A DNA stretch of 39,773 bases from Deltaproteobacteria bacterium. Lineage in GTDB: Bacteria > Desulfobacterota > Desulfobacteria > Desulfobacterales > JAFDMD01. The translations under genes were made by a program, and so were the position numbers. Position 1 is the first letter of the stretch; every line of letters starts with the position of its first letter. Shown in pieces: positions 1 through 39,761 of this stretch. Under the pieces are notes generated by a model, which ran no database searches, was not told the origin of the DNA, and saw only the letters and a list, made by a program, of their open reading frames with translations. The stretch covers positions 1-39,773 of the forward strand of contig JAFDMD010000007.1 of NCBI GenBank assembly GCA_019306185.1, in the 5' to 3' direction.

Positions 1-1165
1 AAAACTCCTCTTTGCCGTCAAAGCTATTGCTTAACATTATTAGGTTGTTAAATTCTCTGATTATATAATCGCTATGAGTGGATATAAAAACTTTTAAGCC
101 GGAGTTTACGCAAAGCGCCAATAATCTTGCAATGTATATTTGATTTGCAGGATGCAGATGGCTTTCCGGCTCGTCTATCATTAATATATCCCCTTTTTGC
201 GCTTTATGCTTTAAGTAAAAGTAAATATCGGAAAGTCCTCTTGCCGAAGATGAAGCCAAATAAAGGGGAATGTTAAACTTTCCTTTTTTGCGGGCTGTTG
301 ATATAAAATGAATCTCTTTATCTACTTGCTTAAAATATCCGCCCGCCATATCTTTTATCGTCTTTAAAATTTCTTCTCCAAAACTTAAGGAACTTTTGCT
401 TGACTTGAGCTTACTTATATCCCGCGTAAAAAATATGTTGTCTTTAATGGGAAGCGCATAACGGGAGCTATACGCTTCTATAAGCTCGAAAGGATCAAAA
501 TGGCCTCTTTCGCCCGATACTTTTTGTAATTGCTCAATTAACTTGTCCTTATTTATATCGAGCTCTTTATAAAACAAGGATATAGCTTGTCTTTCGGCAG
601 ATAAAATAAACGGAGACGGAAAAGATGACTTTAATAATATATAGGAAAGAATAAAAGTTATACCATCGCTTAAAATAAAAAGAGGCGGCAATTTTTTTTT
701 ATCCTCCGTAATTAAAGACAAAATTACTTCTTTATCTTTTTCATATCTTGCTTCAATTTTGATATTTTTGCCAAATTGAACCACAGGCGAAATTTTATCT
801 ATAAAAGCGGGGCTATTTTGCTCTATTGATACAGATATTTTTGTATTCGGAAATTGATTTTCTCCAGCTCCGAAAATATTATGAATATTATCCGAAAACT
901 CCTCGGATATTTTGTTTATAATATTGGTCTTTTTTTTGTTTAATAATTCTATCGGTATTATTAAGCTTCCTTCTTTTATCAGTGTTTTTGCAAAATTTTC
1001 GCTCTCTTCAAGATGAAGATACTTTTTCCATTCTTCTAATAACCCGTATATCGCATAGGTAATATAGGTTTTGCCTGTATTATTGCCTCCCGCAATTATG
1101 GTAAGGTCATTTATCTTAATATCCGCTTTTTTGATTTGCCCGAGATTTTTAATTGAAACTTTCAT
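1..1165 (-). CDS. AAA-family ATPase (OLD/RecF-like), 3' end runs off the window
   Basis: Minus-strand frame from ATG at 1165: MKVSIKNLGQIKKADIKINDLTIIAGGNNTGKTYITYAIYGLL... (Walker A GGNNTGKT), ...DILMIDEPESHLHPANQIYIARLLA... (Walker B, D-loop). Absent from the ORF track because it has no stop inside the window. Confidence 0.85.
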   Translation of the reverse strand, partial: MKVSIKNLGQIKKADIKINDLTIIAGGNNTGKTYITYAIYGLLEEWKKYLHLEESENFAKTLIKEGSLIIPIELLNKKKTNIINKISEEFSDNIHNIFGAGENQFPNTKISVSIEQNSPAFIDKISPVVQFGKNIKIEARYEKDKEVILSLITEDKKKLPPLFILSDGITFILSYILLKSSFPSPFILSAERQAISLFYKELDINKDKLIEQLQKVSGERGHFDPFELIEAYSSRYALPIKDNIFFTRDISKLKSSKSSLSFGEEILKTIKDMAGGYFKQVDKEIHFISTARKKGKFNIPLYLASSSARGLSDIYFYLKHKAQKGDILMIDEPESHLHPANQIYIARLLALCVNSGLKVFISTHSDYIIREFNNLIMLSNSFDGKEEF

Positions 1166-1166
1166 T

Positions 1167-2119
1167 TTAACTTTCTAATTTTTTTTCTATTTTATCTATT
1201 CTTCTTTTTATTTCCGGAAGTTTTGGGATAACATGCTGAACTCTAAGCCATGTTTTGTGGGGCATTTGGACTAAAGTACTTGATACTGTTTCCCCTTTTG
1301 TTATTGATTTTGATACGCCGCACTGAGGACCTATTATAACCTGATCTTCTATGTTAAGATGCCCGCCTATTCCTGCTTGTCCTGCTATTATTACATTTTT
1401 TCCGATTTTGGAGCTTCCGGCGATTCCCACTTGAGCTATTATGAGGCTGTTTTCTCCTATTTCAACATTATGGGCTATATGAACGAGGTTATCTGTTTTT
1501 ACCCCTTTTTGTATCCATGTTTTATCCAAAGCGCCTCTGTCTATGGTCCGTCTGCATGAACATATCCGAAGCCGTCGCTTCCTATTACGGAACCGGCATG
1601 TATTATTACTCTTTTTCCTATAATGGTTTCCGCATAAATAACAACGTTCGGATATATTACGCTATTATCCCCTATTGTAACATTATCTCCTATAAAAACG
1701 TTGGGATGAATTATAACGCCATTTCCTATTACGGTTTTTTTGCCTATATACGAAAACGCGCCTATTGTAACGTTTTTGCCTATGCGTCCGCTTTTTTCTA
1801 TGCGGGCGTCCGGGCTTATTTGCGGATTTGGCTTGGGCTGCGGATAAAGGATTGATAGCGCCTTTGCAAAGGCAAGTCTGGGATTATCTACTATTATGGC
1901 GTTATTAAAAGAAGCTGAGTTGAAAAGATTTGCGGTAAGTATAACCGCTCCTACTTTTTGAGCGGAATCTTTTTTTTTTAATATTTTTTTATCCGTCAAA
2001 AATGTAATGTCATTTTCGCCGGCATTTATAAAGGAAGCAGCCTTTGCTACGGTTTTTTCGCCTTCTCCCTTTAATTTACCGCCTATTTTTTCGGCTATCT
2101 CTATTAGTTTTATTTTCAT
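1167..2119 (-). pseudogene. lpxD: UDP-3-O-acylglucosamine N-acyltransferase LpxD, split into two frames (1541-2119 N-terminal part, 1167-1529 C-terminal part)
   Basis: N-terminal LpxD domain plus hexapeptide repeats end at ...[18 protein letters not shown] different frame resumes at [32 protein letters not shown].... The usual KIPQIGxVxIGDxVEIGAN segment is absent between them. Confidence 0.88.
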
Positions 2120-7602: not shown

Positions 7603-9456
7603 CTATGATTGTTTAATTTTTTCGTGCAGATTTTCACAAAAATTATAATAGGCGCTATATTTTTCTTTTACGTCAGCCTTTTTTAACTTGCCGACATCGT
7701 TAATTACTTTTTTACAAAAATCGGCTTTTAGCTCTTTTAAGTTATCTTTTTTACCGATTTTTTTATTATTTTTTAATTTCTTCTTAATTTCCGCAATTAA
7801 AGGAAGGTTATCAGGGACTTCCAAATCCGTATTATATCTTTCTTTGACGCAGTCTAATAAAATATTTTTATCAAACATGTCCTCTAAAGTAGCTTCAATG
7901 TTTGTGTCGAAAATATCATTTATTGTAAATAAATTTTTATTATCAAAATTTTCATCCTTTAAAACTTGCTTTTTTATCTTTAAACCGTCTTTATCCGCAT
8001 CTAACGCTATATAGCCTTTAATTAATTTCTGATGAAAAAACTTGGTATATTTAGGAATAGATTCAACGCCGTCCGCAGATATTGAACATATGTTTTGGGG
8101 CTTCAAATCGCTTTTAAATTTTTTTGTAAAAGCGTCAAAAATATCTCTATCCGTTTTTCCCTCAAAAATTAACATATTAGGTTCAATCATCTCAAATATA
8201 GAGGTTCCCAAAGCTTCATATAAAACCTCCTCTTTATACGGATTATTTTTATCAATCGGAGTAATTTTAGTTAAAGAATGCTTACGCTCTACGCTAATAT
8301 GCCTATCAATATTTTTTTTATCTATCATATAAATGGAATGAGTAGCCAATAAAACCGTATTATTTTCGGCTATACGCAAAATTTCGTCTCTTAAATAACG
8401 GACGCCGCTCGGGTGCAGATGAGTTTCCGGTTCGTCAAGCAAAATAATCTTATTTTTCAATATATTAGTTTTGTTTTCCGCGGAAAGGTTTAATAAAATT
8501 GAGATAAACTGCTTAAAGCCGTCGCTTCTTTGATTCATTTTATACTTTGGAAGGCTGTTATCCTTATCCTCGACGCTTACCTTACAATTTAAATTCTCCT
8601 CAATTCTTATCTTTATTTTTATCTTATGCTCTTTCCAAATTTCATTAATATGTTGCGTTATATTTTTGGAAAGCAATTCCTCTGTTTCCTGCCTATTTTC
8701 ATCGCTTTTTTTAATCAGATCGATTCGCTGCTCTATATCTTCAATTTCAGAAATTTTAAAAATATTTCTTAACGGAATTGAAATGCTATTATTATTTTTA
8801 AAATTCTCCAAATGAACAGGTTCGTTAATCAAATATCGATCTTTGGATTCCCACAAAATAACTTCGGGCATATAAGCTTCAAGCGCCTCAAATAGGTCTA
8901 TATGACGTCTTAATAATGTCAGCGTTAATAAGCTATAGGTATCTCCTAATAGTTCTTTAACATTTTCAGCTGTAATTTTTTCTTCGCCATTATAGAGCTC
9001 TTTAATATGAACTATAATATCCTCTTCTTTGTCAAACACGTAATTTTGAAACTCTTTATTAGCATCTATACTAACATCTAAGAAACTATCCTGCCGCTTA
9101 TTATCTTTATCAATTTCAACATATCTATAAATTGATTTATTAATCTTTATTAACTTTGCAAGTTCAGGGCTGATTATTTCTTTAAGTTTTTCAATATAAT
9201 GATCCGTATCTTCAATCTCCAAACTATAAGTAACCGAAATAGATTCGCCGGAATTAAATGCCTCTTTATTACAATCAAGATCGTAATCAACTTGTTGATC
9301 TTTATTCAAAAGAGATATTGCTTTTAATATATTACTTTTTCCGCTCTCGTTTATTCCTAACAATATAAAGCAGTTTTTTTCGGAAATATCGTTAAAATCC
9401 AGCTCTAATTTTTTAATACTTCTAAAGTTTTCTATTGCTATTTTTTTAAGTATCAT
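7603..9456 (-). CDS. OLD-family ATP-dependent endonuclease (AAA ATPase + TOPRIM)
   Basis: GINESGKSNILKAI Walker A; LLDEPETHLHPSGVRYLRDEIL; C-terminal TOPRIM-like IFEGKTDRDIFDAF...GYIALDADKDG. Confidence 0.88.
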   Translation of the reverse strand: MILKKIAIENFRSIKKLELDFNDISEKNCFILLGINESGKSNILKAISLLNKDQQVDYDLDCNKEAFNSGESISVTYSLEIEDTDHYIEKLKEIISPELAKLIKINKSIYRYVEIDKDNKRQDSFLDVSIDANKEFQNYVFDKEEDIIVHIKELYNGEEKITAENVKELLGDTYSLLTLTLLRRHIDLFEALEAYMPEVILWESKDRYLINEPVHLENFKNNNSISIPLRNIFKISEIEDIEQRIDLIKKSDENRQETEELLSKNITQHINEIWKEHKIKIKIRIEENLNCKVSVEDKDNSLPKYKMNQRSDGFKQFISILLNLSAENKTNILKNKIILLDEPETHLHPSGVRYLRDEILRIAENNTVLLATHSIYMIDKKNIDRHISVERKHSLTKITPIDKNNPYKEEVLYEALGTSIFEMIEPNMLIFEGKTDRDIFDAFTKKFKSDLKPQNICSISADGVESIPKYTKFFHQKLIKGYIALDADKDGLKIKKQVLKDENFDNKNLFTINDIFDTNIEATLEDMFDKNILLDCVKERYNTDLEVPDNLPLIAEIKKKLKNNKKIGKKDNLKELKADFCKKVINDVGKLKKADVKEKYSAYYNFCENLHEKIKQS

Positions 9457-30830: not shown

Positions 30831-31652
30831 ATGGATAATCAGTTTGAAATTTTTCATTTCGATAAAAATAGAACAAATTTTGAAAATTTCAGCCATAGCA
30901 ATGATATAACATATTGGTATGCAAGAGACTTAATGACTTTTTTAGGGTATTCAAATTATGCAGGCTTTAAAAAAATCATTAATAAAGCAATATCCGCCTG
31001 TATGACTTTAGATATTGACGTTTCGGAAAATTTCAAACAGGTGGAACGCGATATAGAAGGCAAAAAAGAAAGAGATTATAAACTTTCCAGATTTGCTTGC
31101 TATTTGGCGGTAATGAACGGAGACCCTCAAAAAACAAAGGTGGCTCAAGCTCAAGCCTATTTTGTTGTTATAGCGGAAAGTTTTAGAAATTATTTTGAAG
31201 AAGCCGAAAATATCGAAAGGGTTTTAATACGAAACGAGGTTACGGATAGAGAGAAAACATTAAGCGGAACCGTAAACGAAAGAGACATTTACAATTACCC
31301 TCTATTTCAAAATGCAGGTTATAGAGGCTTATATAATATGAATTTAAATCAACTTAAAGATTATAAAAGGTTTTATAAAAAAGGAAGAACATTATTAGAT
31401 TTTATGGGAAAAGAGGAGCTTGCCGCCAACCTATTTCGATTAACCCAAACCGAATTAAAAATAAAAAAAGAGAATATAAAAGGGCAGAAACCGCTTGAAG
31501 CCGCAGCGGAAATAGCAGGAATAGAGGTAAGAAAAACAATCAAACAGATAAGCAATATACTGCCCGAAGATTTAGAACTTGTAGAAGATATAAAAAAGGT
31601 TAAAACCGGAATTAAGCAAACACATAAAAAGCTTTTAAAACAAAGCAAATAA
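30831..31652 (+). CDS. dinD: DinD-like DNA-damage-inducible protein
   Basis: WYARDLMTFLGYSNYAGFKKIINKAISACMT...KERDYKLSRFACYLAVMNGDPQKTKVAQAQAYFVV..., GYRGLYNMNLNQLKDYK, LLDFMGKEELAANLFRLTQTE. Confidence 0.82.
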   Translation: MDNQFEIFHFDKNRTNFENFSHSNDITYWYARDLMTFLGYSNYAGFKKIINKAISACMTLDIDVSENFKQVERDIEGKKERDYKLSRFACYLAVMNGDPQKTKVAQAQAYFVVIAESFRNYFEEAENIERVLIRNEVTDREKTLSGTVNERDIYNYPLFQNAGYRGLYNMNLNQLKDYKRFYKKGRTLLDFMGKEELAANLFRLTQTELKIKKENIKGQKPLEAAAEIAGIEVRKTIKQISNILPEDLELVEDIKKVKTGIKQTHKKLLKQSK

Positions 31653-32411: not shown

Positions 32412-35408
32412 TTAACAATCAAGGTCTCCCTCTTTATAAGCGCCTTTTATATCCTCTACGCTAATCGAAACAATATTTTCGTTTTTACTTCCTTTTATAA
32501 TAAATTTTTTTTCATCGGTTGTTCTACCTATACAAAAACAAGGAAGCCCTTTAAAAATTCTTTCTATCTTTTTTTGATTTTCAGATTTTACGCTTATTAT
32601 AAATCTGCCCGAAGATTCGGAAAATAATAAAGCGTTGTTTCTTATCTTTTTTGGCGATATGATTTTATTTAAATCAATCTCCGCCCCGATTTCTCCTGCG
32701 GCGCAGCAAAGCGCAAGATGAACCCCAAGCCCGCCTCTATATATGCCTCGAGCCGAAGATATAAGAGATTTTTTTATTGCGGCGCAAAGGGCGTTATATA
32801 ATGATAAAGATTTTTTTAAATTATCTGTTTTCGGAACATTTAAGCCTGTATAACCAAGCGTCTCGTAATAGGCGGAGCCTCCGAGTTCATTTTTTGTATT
32901 TCCGAGCAGATATATAATATCTTCCGAATTTTTAAAGTCCATAGTAACGCATTTTCTTATATCATCTACTATGCTTACCGAAGAAAAGCATAATGTTTCC
33001 GGCGCGGATATTTTATATATGTTTCCGTCCCGATCCGGTATTTGCCCGTCCGCATACATGCTATCTTTGCCGGAAATAAGCGGGATTTTATAAGCCGAGC
33101 ATATTTTTTTTAACGCAATGCAAGAACGAACCAATTTTGCCGCTTTTAATTTGCCGTCCGGATTATTTTTTTTATCGTATCTTATGTCGGGCCAGCAAAA
33201 ATTATCTACTCCGCTTATATCTTCGATATTTCCGCCTACCGATATAACTCGTCTTGCCGCCTCGTCCACAACCGCAAGCGTCATATAATAGGTATCTATT
33301 TTAGAATAAAAAGGAAGTATTCCGTTTGCAAAGGCTATTCCTTTATAAGAATTAAAATCCGGTTTTATTACGACCGCATCCGAAAAAACGTCTCTGTTTT
33401 TTCCTATAAGCGGCTTTATAACGCTTTGCCCTAACACTTCATGATCATATTGTCTTATAACCGCTTCCTTTGAAGATATATTGCGGCTTTTTAAAATATT
33501 TTTTAATAATCGGTTATAATCTTTCGGCTCTGTTAGCGCCGGTTCAAATAATCCTCTTTTTTTCGGCGAAATCCATACCGCGTCGAATTGAGATTGCGCA
33601 AAACCGTTTTTTAAAAAATCAAGATTTATATAAGCTAACGTTTTTTCTTTATAGGTTACATGCAAAAAGCCGCTTTTGGTATATTCTCCTATTACGGAGC
33701 TTTTAACTCCATGCTTTTTTGAAATGCGCATAAATTTTTTAAGATTGTTCGGCGATATTGCAAGCGTCATTCTTTCTTGAGATTCCGAAACCCATATTTC
33801 CCAAAAATCAAGAGTATTATATTTTAAAGGAACCTTTGAAAGATCAACCTTAGCGCCGCCGGAAATATATGCGGATTCGGTAACCGAGCCGGATAATCCG
33901 CCCGCGCCGTTGTCTGTAATATATTCAATTAATCCTTTATCTCTCGCTTCAATAATAAGATCCTGCATCTTTTTTTGAGTATAAGGATCGCCTATTTGAA
34001 CATGACTTGCAGGAGTATCCGCAGATAATATTTCGGAAGATGCCGTAGCGCCGTGAATGCCGTCTTTGCCTACCAATCCGCCGGACATTATTATAAGATG
34101 CCCCGCTTCCGCCTTTTTTATTTCCGAAGGCTCTTTTTTTATTTTTGCCGGCATTATTCCTAACGCTGTTACAAAAACAAGACTTTTTCCTATATATTTA
34201 TCATTAAAAAGAATAGCGCCGAAACAGGTTGGAACTCCGCTTTTGTTGCCTCCGTCTTTTACCCCTTCTATTACTCCGTCTAAAAGCCGTTTCGGATGAA
34301 GCGTCGGTTTTAAATTTCCTTTATAATTAATGTCGCCTACGCAAAACCCGAAGCTTCCCATTATAGGCTTTGCCCCTTTTCCCGCCCCCATTATATCTCT
34401 AAAAACTCCGAGTATGCCGGTAATAGCTCCGCCGTAAGCTTCTAAATTAGACGGCGAATTATGAGTTTCGCCTGTAACCGCATAATTATAACGTTTGTTA
34501 AAACGAACTATTCCTGCGTTATCCCATAATACGGAAACAATCTCTTTTTTATTTTTTTTAAGCTTTAATGTCGGTTTTTTTATATACTGCTCAAAAAGAT
34601 TATTAATTGTTAAGCTTTTGCCCGTATCCTTGTCAACGTAACGGTACAAACCTTTAAAGGTATTATGACAACAATGATCGCTTCTTGCCTGAGCTATACA
34701 TTCCAGCTCCAAATCGGTAGGTTTGCTTAAATTATATTTTGCCCTTGTCTGTAATATTTTATTATCCTTAAAATAAGAAAAAATTGCAAAAATATCCTTT
34801 TGAAAAAGAGGTATCCCTCTTTTTTTAAGTATCAAGTTTAAAGCGTTTGCGGAGGCTGCGGATATTATTTCAAGTTGCGGCTTATAACCTTCTTCTATTT
34901 GCGGAATAATATCGGCTATCCCTTTTTTAAAATCGATTTCCTTATTATTATATATTTTTGTCGCGGATATTATACTATTTGATAAAAGTTCCTCCGCAAT
35001 CTTTTTAATATCTTCATAAGCAAGGTTTGCGCCTTGTATGCAGTATCTTGTTGAAGTATGAATAGAATCTTTTTTACCGAATCTTTTAATCTTTAAAAAA
35101 TCCTCGATAGCCTCTTTTGCGCAATCCGCGCTATTATCTTTTACGCCGGATTTATACCCTACTTGAATTGTCCAATCAAAACTTATAGGCAAAAAATTAT
35201 AAGAAAAAATTTGAGTAACCGGATTTGTAAATTCTTCGGCTATAAAATCAAGCTCTTTTGCCGATAAATCCGCGTTAAAAGCTATAACATTGATAACTCG
35301 GATATTTTCCATATCAATATTAAAATACTCTTTTGCCTTTTTTTTAATCTTTGCGCCTTCCGCGTCAAAAATATCCGGCTTTAAAGCTATTTCCAATATA
35401 TGCGGCAT
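32412..35408 (-). CDS. purL: Phosphoribosylformylglycinamidine synthase, PurS-PurL fusion
   Basis: N-terminal PurS-like region (ILEIALKPDIFDAEGAKIKKKAKEYFNI); PurL core SDHCCHNTFKG, GETHNSPSNLEAYGGAITGILGVFRDIMG, ITDNGAGGLSGSVTESA. Confidence 0.9.
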   Translation of the reverse strand: MPHILEIALKPDIFDAEGAKIKKKAKEYFNIDMENIRVINVIAFNADLSAKELDFIAEEFTNPVTQIFSYNFLPISFDWTIQVGYKSGVKDNSADCAKEAIEDFLKIKRFGKKDSIHTSTRYCIQGANLAYEDIKKIAEELLSNSIISATKIYNNKEIDFKKGIADIIPQIEEGYKPQLEIISAASANALNLILKKRGIPLFQKDIFAIFSYFKDNKILQTRAKYNLSKPTDLELECIAQARSDHCCHNTFKGLYRYVDKDTGKSLTINNLFEQYIKKPTLKLKKNKKEIVSVLWDNAGIVRFNKRYNYAVTGETHNSPSNLEAYGGAITGILGVFRDIMGAGKGAKPIMGSFGFCVGDINYKGNLKPTLHPKRLLDGVIEGVKDGGNKSGVPTCFGAILFNDKYIGKSLVFVTALGIMPAKIKKEPSEIKKAEAGHLIIMSGGLVGKDGIHGATASSEILSADTPASHVQIGDPYTQKKMQDLIIEARDKGLIEYITDNGAGGLSGSVTESAYISGGAKVDLSKVPLKYNTLDFWEIWVSESQERMTLAISPNNLKKFMRISKKHGVKSSVIGEYTKSGFLHVTYKEKTLAYINLDFLKNGFAQSQFDAVWISPKKRGLFEPALTEPKDYNRLLKNILKSRNISSKEAVIRQYDHEVLGQSVIKPLIGKNRDVFSDAVVIKPDFNSYKGIAFANGILPFYSKIDTYYMTLAVVDEAARRVISVGGNIEDISGVDNFCWPDIRYDKKNNPDGKLKAAKLVRSCIALKKICSAYKIPLISGKDSMYADGQIPDRDGNIYKISAPETLCFSSVSIVDDIRKCVTMDFKNSEDIIYLLGNTKNELGGSAYYETLGYTGLNVPKTDNLKKSLSLYNALCAAIKKSLISSARGIYRGGLGVHLALCCAAGEIGAEIDLNKIISPKKIRNNALLFSESSGRFIISVKSENQKKIERIFKGLPCFCIGRTTDEKKFIIKGSKNENIVSISVEDIKGAYKEGDLDC

Positions 35409-35432: not shown

Positions 35433-36347
35433 TTACGGACTGACGCTTACAGACCCGATTTTTTGATTGAAAAGAGAAATTTGCTTGGCTTTTTTCCTGT
35501 TTAAGTTTTTTTTATAAACAACCGTAAAATTAGTTACTAACGCTTCTAACATAGGATTCCGATTTTTCTCGTAACCTCCTACATGATAAAAATGCTCTTT
35601 TGTAATAACGTCAAAAGAACTCCAAAGCGTATCAAGATATTTGTTTTTACGATAATCATTGCTATGCCAAGTGGAGAGAATAAACATACTTTTACAATTT
35701 TTTAAAAACGCGTTTAATCTCATCTCGGATTTTTCGTTCCATCCGTTATAATAGTCTACATGACGTCCTATATAAGGAGGATCGCAATAAATAATATCTC
35801 CTTTTGAAGCGTTAGTTATTATTTTTTCAAAATCTTGACATATAAACTCATAATCGTAACATTTAATTAAATTTTGAATATATGAAACCTGATTAACAAT
35901 CTCAGTTATGTATGATCGGGCAAATCTTTCCGGCTTTTTGCAAAACGGAACATTAAAACCGCCTTTACCGTTAAAACGTATCATACCGTTGAAACATGAA
36001 CGGTTAAGAAAATCCAAAGGTTCTTGATTTTTGTTAAATCTTTCTCTTACCTCGTAATAATAGTCCTCCCCGTTTTCCTTAAGTTTTTTTCCTTCGCTTT
36101 TAAGAAAGCTTTTTACGGTAGAAGGGGCAATTGCTCCGCTTTTAATTGCGTTATAAAAATTTATCAGGTGCGGATTTATATCGCATAAAATAGCCTTGCG
36201 AGGCTGAACATTAAAAGCGACAACGCCGGATCCCATAAACGGCTCTATCCATTCTCCTTTGAAGTCGTCTGGAATAACATTTTTAATCCAATCGGATAAT
36301 TTTGTCTTTATACCCTGACATTTAATAGGCGGAACTATAACTTTCAT
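35433..36347 (-). CDS. D12-class N6-adenine DNA methyltransferase, M.EcoRV-like
   Basis: [34 protein letters not shown] (motif I), [49 protein letters not shown] (motif IV), [23 protein letters not shown]. Confidence 0.93.
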
Positions 36348-37195
36348 AAAGCCTTCTTTCTTTTTTTTGCTTTGGGAACAATTAAGGATATATCGCCGTT
36401 ACGATATTTAACAAAATCTTCCAAATTTCTTATCTTTTCTGTTTTGCCATTATTTTTAGCAATACTGATCTTGTTATAATTCATCCAATAATCGTCAAAC
36501 CATTTTTCTCCGAGTTCGGAGAAAACTCCCCTGCCGCTGATAATATCCGAAATCTTATTTATGCTTCCTATATTCGCAGTGTTTCCGCTTCCGCTTTTAT
36601 CGCTTGCTATATTCCATTTTTCGGCGACAAAAAATTAAAAGTCTTTAATTACGGATGTAATGGATATTAGATCGTCTATTTTATATATTTCCGTTTCTTT
36701 AATAGTTTTTCCGCTATGCCTGCTATAAATTATACCAAGACAAAAATGTCCTTTATATTCTCCGTAAGGAAATTGTATATTCTTTTTGCTTGCTCAATTT
36801 ATAAAATATTCGCCGTGTGATCCGAGAGTAAAACCATTGCAATATTCGGGGTTATTAGCAAGGCGATAAGTTGTTTTAAAATCAACGGCAAATTTTATTG
36901 CTTCCTCTTTTTCATAAATAAAAGAAATATCGGGATAATAATTTTGATGATCCGCTAATACTATTTTAAAGTTATTATCTTCGGCAAATTTCAATATCTT
37001 ATGAAAAATATGTATTTCCAAAATTTTTGAAATAATTTTTGTATCCGTAGAAATAGTATATATATTTTTAAAAACGTCAATAAAGCCTTTAATTGTCCAA
37101 TCCCCATGTTCAGTAACTATCTCCTTGTTTAAAGAGGATACGAATTTAGATAATTTATTAAAAAAATCAGCTTTTATTTCAAACAAATCTTTCAT
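36344..37195 (-). pseudogene. EcoRV-family type II restriction endonuclease with two in-frame premature stops (TGA 36794-36796; TAA 36635-36637)
   Basis: One continuous frame from ATG 37195 to TGA 36344-36346: ...DHQNYYPDISFIYEKEEAIKFAVDFKTTYRLANNPEYCNGFTLGSHGEYFIN*ASKKNIQFPYGEYKGHFCLGIIYSRHSGKTIKETEIYKIDDLISITSVIKDF*FFVAEKWNIASDKSGSGNTANIGSINKISDIISGRGVFSELGEKWFDDYWMNYNKI...[10 protein letters not shown]. Confidence 0.92.
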
Positions 37196-37211: not shown

Positions 37212-39761
37212 TCAAGCCAACGCGTCATAAATAGCCGTTTTTAACCCTTCAATCTTATCAGGGGAAACTATTTTTTCGCCGTATAAATTTCTTACATAAA
37301 AAACGTCTATTATTCTGTCCGCTTTAGTGGCTATTTTTGCGATCCTAATATCTATATCTTTCTCGAATATTGCATCTGTTATTCTAAATAAAATATCCGG
37401 CGCATTGTAAGTGGTAACCTCTATAATCGAAAAAAATTTAGATATATTATTATTTATATGGGCATTATCCGCCTTATTTTCCCCCTTGTTTTTATCTCTT
37501 TCGATATTATAATCTCTTTTTCTTTTTTTAAGAGCCTCTTTTATATTAAGTTTTCCTGCAAGAGCAAATCCAATATCTATCGCCGCTTTTTTCCATTTTT
37601 CTTTTTCAAAAATCTTATCTTGCGGGGGCTTGACTTTAAAAATATCCAGCGCAATCCCGTTTGTCCAAGTATTAATATTAGCGTCCAATATCTCTATTCC
37701 GTTTAATGTAAGTACTCCTGCAATTTTAGAAAAAAGTCCTGGTTTATCTTGGGCGCACAAGGTAATTTTTCTTGTATCCGATTCAATTACCTTTTTTATA
37801 TGCCATACAAAACTATTATTTTTTAATCTCCCGTATAATTTTATATGATCCTTTATATCTTTTATATCCGTATATAAAAGGTATCTCGGAGACATTGCCT
37901 TAAAAACGGACGAATTTAACGGAATAATCTCCTTTTTTTTCTCCTCGATTATCTCAATTGTTTGTTCGCTTGCCAATTCTCCTTTATCGATTATATTGTA
38001 GGTTTTAAAAAAAATATCCTGTAGCAAAGCCTCCGTCCATTTATTCCAAGCTTTAGGTCCTGTGGCTATCGAATCCGCGACCGTTAAAAGATACAACATT
38101 GCAAGACGCTTAATACTTTTTATTTTACGCGCGCAAAAAATAGCGGTTCCTTCGTCCTGTATATCTCTTCTTGTCGCGGTTTTTATTAAAAAAAGATGAT
38201 TCTCTATTAAAAAAGATACTACGTCTATATCTTTGGTTTTTAATTTTTTACGTTTTAAAATTTCGGTCGCAATCTTTGCGCCTATTTTAGAATGCTCGCC
38301 TACGGAATACCCCTTGCCTATATCGTGTAAAAGCGCCGCCCATAAAAGAGGCTTTTTATTTTCAAGAGTCGTATAAAGCTCGTCGCAAAGCGCGTCCGAT
38401 GTTATATCTTCGGATCTTCCAAAGCGTTTAATTGTTTTAAGAGTATAAATAGAATGCTTGTCTACCGGATATAAATGATAATCGTTATATTGTATCAAAT
38501 CCGTTATCTCTTTAAATTCCGGTATATATTTAACCAAAACCCCTATATTTAACATTAAGTTTAAGGGGTTGAAATCGGATAATGGCGCAAGAAGTATATT
38601 TTCAAAAGACTTTAAAATTTCCGGCGAGTTTTGATATTTTCCCTCTATTAAATATAAAAAATCTTCGGTAACCCTGTTTGCTTCCGCGCTTAACGGAATA
38701 TTCAGTTTTGCGCTGTATTCAAAAATTTTAATTAAAAGTTTCGGATCTTCCAATATCGCTTCCGAAGAGACGTATTGAATATACCCCTCTTTTATTACAA
38801 GCCTTTTATCCGGTTTATCTACTTGTTTATCTTTAATCCTCTCCGTTCTCGATCTACATTTTTCATATATAAAAATTAAAAAAAGATATTTTATAAACTC
38901 CATTCTATTATGAAGAATTCCCAAAAAAACCTCTACCGGCTTTCTATTTTTTTCTTGAGTAAAACCCATATCCAAAGCAGCAGGCATCTGATACTCTTTA
39001 TAAAAGTAATCGCATTTTCTTTTTGTAATATAATGAAGCCTGTTTCTCACGTTCCATATAAAATCAAGACAATCCTTTAATCTGTTAAACTCTTCATGCG
39101 AAAATATGCCAACGCGTTCCAGGTCTTTGAAATCTTTAAGCCCGAATTTAATACGAGCTATCCATAATATAGTATGATAATCTCTAAGCCCGCCTTTTCC
39201 CTCTTTTAAATTCGGCTCCAACAAATATGAAGAATCTCCGAATTTTTTATGGCGTTTTCTATTTGTTTCTATAAGCCAATCCGTTATTGTTTGAGATTCG
39301 GACGATTCTAATTTCTCCTTAAGATTTTTTACAAGCTTTAAATATAAACCCTTATTTCCGCATACAAATCGCGAATCAAGCAAAGCCGTAAAAGTTTCAA
39401 AATGCTCCTTTTCAATCTTTATCGGCTCATTTACATTTTTAAAAGAATATCCCAATTCAAACTTCAAATCCCATAAAGGATATACAACCTCGCTTATAAA
39501 ATCTTCGGAACTCTTCGGAATGCCCTCTTCAAACAGAATCATTATATCAATATCCGAGCATATCGCCTGCTCCCTTCTTCCGTAACCTCCCAAAGCTACA
39601 ATTGCATACCTTTCAATATCCGGCTTAATACTTTTATTTCCGCCCGCAACCTCAAATGCAGATTTAAAATATTCGTCTATTAATCCGCAATGCTTATATA
39701 AAAAATCGGAAGACTTATTTTGTAAAAATAAATTTATAAGCCCTTCTCTTTTCTCTTCCAA
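37212..39761 (-). CDS. glnD: Bifunctional PII uridylyltransferase/uridylyl-removing enzyme GlnD (5' end may lie beyond the window)
   Basis: ALGGYGRREQAICSDIDIMILFE nucleotidyltransferase motif; LLWAALLHDIGKGYSVGEHSKIGAKIA HD motif; two C-terminal ACT regions. Confidence 0.93.
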   Translation of the reverse strand: MEEKREGLINLFLQNKSSDFLYKHCGLIDEYFKSAFEVAGGNKSIKPDIERYAIVALGGYGRREQAICSDIDIMILFEEGIPKSSEDFISEVVYPLWDLKFELGYSFKNVNEPIKIEKEHFETFTALLDSRFVCGNKGLYLKLVKNLKEKLESSESQTITDWLIETNRKRHKKFGDSSYLLEPNLKEGKGGLRDYHTILWIARIKFGLKDFKDLERVGIFSHEEFNRLKDCLDFIWNVRNRLHYITKRKCDYFYKEYQMPAALDMGFTQEKNRKPVEVFLGILHNRMEFIKYLFLIFIYEKCRSRTERIKDKQVDKPDKRLVIKEGYIQYVSSEAILEDPKLLIKIFEYSAKLNIPLSAEANRVTEDFLYLIEGKYQNSPEILKSFENILLAPLSDFNPLNLMLNIGVLVKYIPEFKEITDLIQYNDYHLYPVDKHSIYTLKTIKRFGRSEDITSDALCDELYTTLENKKPLLWAALLHDIGKGYSVGEHSKIGAKIATEILKRKKLKTKDIDVVSFLIENHLFLIKTATRRDIQDEGTAIFCARKIKSIKRLAMLYLLTVADSIATGPKAWNKWTEALLQDIFFKTYNIIDKGELASEQTIEIIEEKKKEIIPLNSSVFKAMSPRYLLYTDIKDIKDHIKLYGRLKNNSFVWHIKKVIESDTRKITLCAQDKPGLFSKIAGVLTLNGIEILDANINTWTNGIALDIFKVKPPQDKIFEKEKWKKAAIDIGFALAGKLNIKEALKKRKRDYNIERDKNKGENKADNAHINNNISKFFSIIEVTTYNAPDILFRITDAIFEKDIDIRIAKIATKADRIIDVFYVRNLYGEKIVSPDKIEGLKTAIYDALA

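Follow-up and report, generated by a model that had tools for sequence, protein, structure and literature searches.

The stretch of DNA analysed here, referred to as the window, comprises 39,773 nucleotides of contig JAFDMD010000007.1 from a Desulfobacterales draft genome. Between glnD and purL it carries an EcoRV-family restriction endonuclease pseudogene followed by an intact D12/Dam-type adenine methylase (Table 1). The likely start of the endonuclease is the ATG at 37195 (MKDLFEIK), approximately 17 bases beyond the glnD stop; the listed open reading frame of 144 aa starts upstream, inside glnD. From the ATG to the first stop the product has 133 residues.

Table 1. Coordinates of the genes and sequence features of the glnD-purL region (window positions)
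Feature	Position	Strand	Remarks
glnD, upstream flank of the insertion	37212..39761	-	orthologues in G002 and G000:C98
EcoRV-family restriction endonuclease pseudogene	36344..37195	-	PF09233; 283 codons including two internal stops, plus terminal TGA, which overlaps the methylase ATG as ATGA
Catalytic PD...DxK (D89, D105, K107), kept in truncated product	36875..36931	-	sequence and R.EcoRV alignment
First in-frame nonsense codon, TGA (codon 134)	36794..36796	-	Arg column in 23/23 relatives
Second in-frame nonsense codon, TAA (codon 187)	36635..36637	-	Gln column in 14/23 relatives
GSGNTANIG recognition-loop segment, past both stops, untranslated	36566..36592	-	alignment to R.EcoRV (GSGNTTNIG)
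Approximate recombination break in endonuclease 3' part	36475..36517	-	sliding identity, diagnostic sites, tree discordance
Intact D12/Dam-type adenine methylase	35433..36347	-	PF02086 2.1e-54; TIGR00571; start overlaps endonuclease stop
purL (FGAM synthase), downstream flank of the insertion	32412..35408	-	orthologues in L058 and L059

The initial annotation, made from the letters alone, had described an EcoRV-type gene with two in-frame nonsense codons and no frameshift, and its coordinates proved exact. With the stops masked, the translation matches the Pfam family Endonuc-EcoRV (PF09233) with an e-value of 9.6e-114 (379 bits) over profile positions 2-243 of 244, i.e. 242 of 244 positions, a full-length match through both stops that is far beyond chance. 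The three pieces separated by the stops each match PF09233 individually (1.9e-51, 1.5e-18 and 1.6e-32), which bears out the suggestion that the part after the stops also resembles EcoRV. In a search against solved structures the top matches were R.EcoRV (4.9e-35). The catalytic spacing is that of EcoRV as well, with D89, D105 and K107 corresponding to D74, D90 and K92. The recognition-loop role of the GSGNTTNIG segment is established from the EcoRV structure. Relatives are encoded by thirty-one loci from a scan of the genome collection and by two same-order genomes. In the alignment, in which 23 relatives were compared at the stop columns, there is no indel at either stop site and the flanking residues align; together with the Arg and Gln columns of the relatives, this identifies both stops as point nonsense changes. 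The frame is thus confirmed as a collinear, full-length EcoRV-family endonuclease gene interrupted by two stops, and the full-length open frame of a working enzyme is broken by an in-frame TGA and TAA. Phase variation of the endonuclease was considered and rejected since the alignment with the relatives shows substitutions at the stops and no indel. Excess change at invariant sites was also rejected as a sign of decay by itself: the window copy carries Q32D and P65H, but these are within the range of the other rows.

A full-length enzyme could in principle be made by stop-codon readthrough or recoding, which the purifying selection on the gene body would fit. However, the two stop codons are different, the relatives carry Arg and mostly Gln at these columns rather than Sec or Pyl, and genes elsewhere in the window are open, with normal ends, under the standard code, which makes this highly improbable. 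An active nuclease assembled from separate N- and C-terminal chains, through splitting or reinitiation, would fit the family-level similarity kept by every segment, but it has next to no chance of being correct. There is no in-frame ATG, GTG or TTG from the first stop to 36484, where only 46 codons remain, so no second chain is encoded; the middle piece of 52 codons cannot start, and such an arrangement was seen in none of the relatives compared.

Assembly, base-calling or strain-mixture artefacts would mean that the organism, or some of its population, has an intact endonuclease. The draft is fragmented, with a contamination of 5.87%, a second co-binned congener and two glnD copies. Apparent pseudogenes have often been overturned by resequencing before (a Brucella example is cited in PMC3488263), and a frameshifting deletion in lpxD on the same contig may stem from faulty assembly. 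On the other hand, the two endonuclease defects are both substitutions and fall within a single gene of 851 bp, while the ~12,000 codons of the other main ORFs have none. The probability that two random errors over roughly 12,300 codons would both hit the endonuclease gene is about 5e-4. No second endonuclease copy was found in the organism's own genome, and the same type of decay occurs in many independent assemblies. An assembly error behind the stops is therefore unlikely, and so is an artefact of this kind in general.

As for lpxD itself (1167-2119, minus strand), the gene is broken by a 70-bp deletion (around 1547) relative to the congeners G001 and G002, which either reflects a genuine loss or was introduced by the assembly. 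A neighbouring stretch of 229 bp has 100% identity with the end of a G002 contig, and the organism's own genome yielded no further lpxD copy.

The methylase behind the dead endonuclease is, as the initial annotation held, intact. It is full length, has intact FMGSG and DPPY motifs, scores above the TIGR00571 cut-off and is 64% identical to M.EcoRV (plasmid matches). It also has its own ribosome-binding-like site, GAAAGAAGG. A whole-genome search of the draft (G000) detected a single PF09233 copy, with one TGA and one TAA in its interior; with this sole copy interrupted, the methylase stands alone. As a solitary methylase it is predicted to keep its sites methylated, and the predicted specificity of the operon is GATATC.

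Intact endonucleases occur in related genomes, as had been anticipated: those of G034 (L062) and G013 (L004) are 78-80% identical to the window endonuclease (78% for L062 and 79% for L004). A codon model was fitted to endonuclease residues 1-227 of five sequences. On the window branch omega was 0.078, compared with a background of 0.038. The value of omega=1 was rejected on this branch (2dlnL 10.5), and the elevation above background was weak (2dlnL 2.9, p about 0.09). The likelihood profile bounds the window-branch omega below about 0.2, so that the neutral part of this branch amounts to no more than about one sixth. Most of the window branch was under purifying selection, which supports a death of the endonuclease that is recent relative to its divergence. 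Synonymous change on the endonuclease tree is large, and the "recent" inactivation of the initial annotation is upheld as a relative statement only.

The surroundings indicate how the operon arrived. In the congener co-binned in the same draft (contig C98, locus L059) purL lies 17 bases after glnD and the slot is empty. Its glnD is 80% identical to that of the window, i.e. two species are co-binned in the draft. In G002 (contig C173, L058 5228-5857) the slot contains an NYN-domain gene with a match to the candidate defence family HEC-09. Neither the EcoRV-type endonuclease nor the methylase was found in the congeners G001 and G002. Given the empty slot in C98, the other cargo in G002 and the absence of the system from G001 and G002, the EcoRV-type operon was most likely inserted into the glnD-purL slot within the window lineage.

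The slot takes differing cargo and is perhaps a small defence hotspot. Further defence-like genes are found in the window at 2-1165 (minus strand), 7603-9456 (minus strand) and 30831-31652 (plus strand). Their products are, in this order, an AAA ATPase with a match to PD-T4-4_A (7e-116), a protein of the OLD-like ATPase-TOPRIM type and a BRO-N protein that matches PDC-S13.

Three results go beyond the initial annotation: the empty site in the congener, the mosaic ancestry of the operon and the recurrent decay of endonucleases beside live methylases. While the window endonuclease is close to those of L004 and L062, the methylases of these loci share only 57-58% identity with the window methylase, which is 64% identical to the Cloacimonadota copy L011. 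In trees of 26 pairs the window endonuclease groups with L004 and L062 (99/97) and the methylase is placed in another clade (100/98). Forcing the two trees to agree was rejected in either direction (AU p 0.0002 and 0.0001), and with 53 pairs including EcoRV the discordance holds (AU p 0.0002 and 0.005); these p-values are somewhat generous, as the tested clades were named after the identities had been seen. The break falls at about residues 227-241 of the endonuclease, within the conserved GEKWFDDYWMNY stretch. Upstream of it the sequence is sister to Desulfobacterota copies, whereas the downstream part and the methylase belong to a Cloacimonadota/Campylobacterota/EcoRV clade. The operon is therefore a mosaic, in which the endonuclease body and its 3' end together with the methylase come from different ancestral sources. 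This discordant ancestry shows that type II partners are exchangeable between lineages. Both nonsense codons are upstream of the break. Recombination in the 3' end of the endonuclease may have exchanged the native methylase for a methylase of a different clade, and incomplete or mismatched protection could then have made the endonuclease harmful and led to selection for its inactivation. That such a partner swap caused the death of the endonuclease is rather doubtful.

A methylase-anchored search was conducted in four phyla to see how common the situation is: the phylum of the window (395 genomes), Chloroflexota, which includes L012 (400), Poribacteria, which includes L007 (85), and the phylum of Ignavibacteriales L029 (346). 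The phyla were chosen for holding a relative, the genomes within each are related and the sample is modest. The neighbourhoods, about 1.5 kb on each side, were classified with the endonuclease profile in drafts that are fragmented. Among 75 methylase loci, 72 were classified and 3, all in Poribacteria, were at contig ends. The endonuclease was intact at 37 of the classified loci, present as a remnant at 17 and lacking at 18. The counts of intact, remnant and no endonuclease were 0/4/0 in the phylum of the window, 10/1/3 in Chloroflexota, 17/8/15 in Poribacteria and 10/4/0 in the Ignavibacteriales phylum. Single nonsense codons account for the remnants L075, L093, L106 and L132; L133, with a stop near the N-terminus, is uncertain. 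Other remnants arose by frameshifts, by truncations or, in L082/L029, by a deletion that removes the catalytic region in frame. A live endonuclease beside a dead EcoRV-type methylase was found at none of the 72 loci. Among the fully read methylases, L145 alone has premature stops, and the endonuclease at this locus had already been destroyed. The L149 methylase contains one stop as well, but its locus is cut by a contig end. In Poribacteria the EcoRV-type methylase occurs in 41 of the 85 genomes (loci L096-L123 and L137-L149), far above the other sampled phyla.

These counts bear on a published disagreement on whether solitary methylases commonly come from decay in situ. Oliveira et al. 2014 (PMC4176335) concluded that solitary restriction-modification genes rarely result from degradation, contrary to earlier suggestions. 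Ershova et al. 2012 (PMC3488263) described the converse case, endonucleases beside corrupted methylases, and warned of sequencing errors. For the EcoRV-type family the survey, with its modest sample, favours decay in situ. The window operon is one clear and well-preserved instance of a common, known process; its mosaic origin is unexpected.

Taken together, the locus is very probably a horizontally acquired EcoRV-type operon in which the endonuclease is dead by two nonsense substitutions and the methylase is intact. An EcoRV-type (GATATC) restriction-modification operon would have been acquired horizontally and inserted between glnD and purL. Two nonsense substitutions would later have inactivated the endonuclease and reduced it to the 133-residue fragment. 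The fragment is expected to be inert because, despite its catalytic residues, it is without the recognition loop and the C-terminal half. The system has thus probably lost cutting, and the methylase, with its own ribosome-binding-like site, would persist. The operon may be regarded as a clear snapshot of a restriction-modification system turning into a solitary methylase.

Avoidance of GATATC was considered as a footprint of past restriction. The window contains 2 sites compared with 10 expected, and G000 has 300 compared with 763 in the reversed control. However, congeners without the system are equally depleted (202/626 in G001 and 211/640 in G002), and GATATC is not rare in G013 and G034 despite their intact systems. 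The footprint was therefore rejected. GATATC is strongly under-represented across the whole genus (about 0.3-0.4 of the reversed control), regardless of the restriction-modification system.

Among known systems, EcoRV itself (R.EcoRV/M.EcoRV, on E. coli plasmids such as pEC159) has in common with the window the endonuclease fold family, the catalytic spacing, the GSGNTxNIG segment and a closely similar D12 methylase. R.EcoRV, however, is only about 36% identical to the window endonuclease, over part of the length, and the window copy is dead. The window genes are co-directional and overlapping, whereas the EcoRV genes are divergent with a helix-turn-helix gene between them. In the 53-pair tree M.EcoRV of pEC159 (L150) falls inside the methylase family, while extreme divergence sets R.EcoRV apart (branch length over 8); the histories of the two EcoRV genes are thus very unequal. 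The operons of G034 and G013 are closer, with the gene order and overlap of the window and similar endonucleases, but in these both genes are open and the methylases are from another clade. Solitary (orphan) methyltransferases from decayed restriction-modification systems likewise combine an intact methylase with a lost endonuclease. The window methylase differs in that its dead partner has stayed beside it, which makes the route of decay visible.
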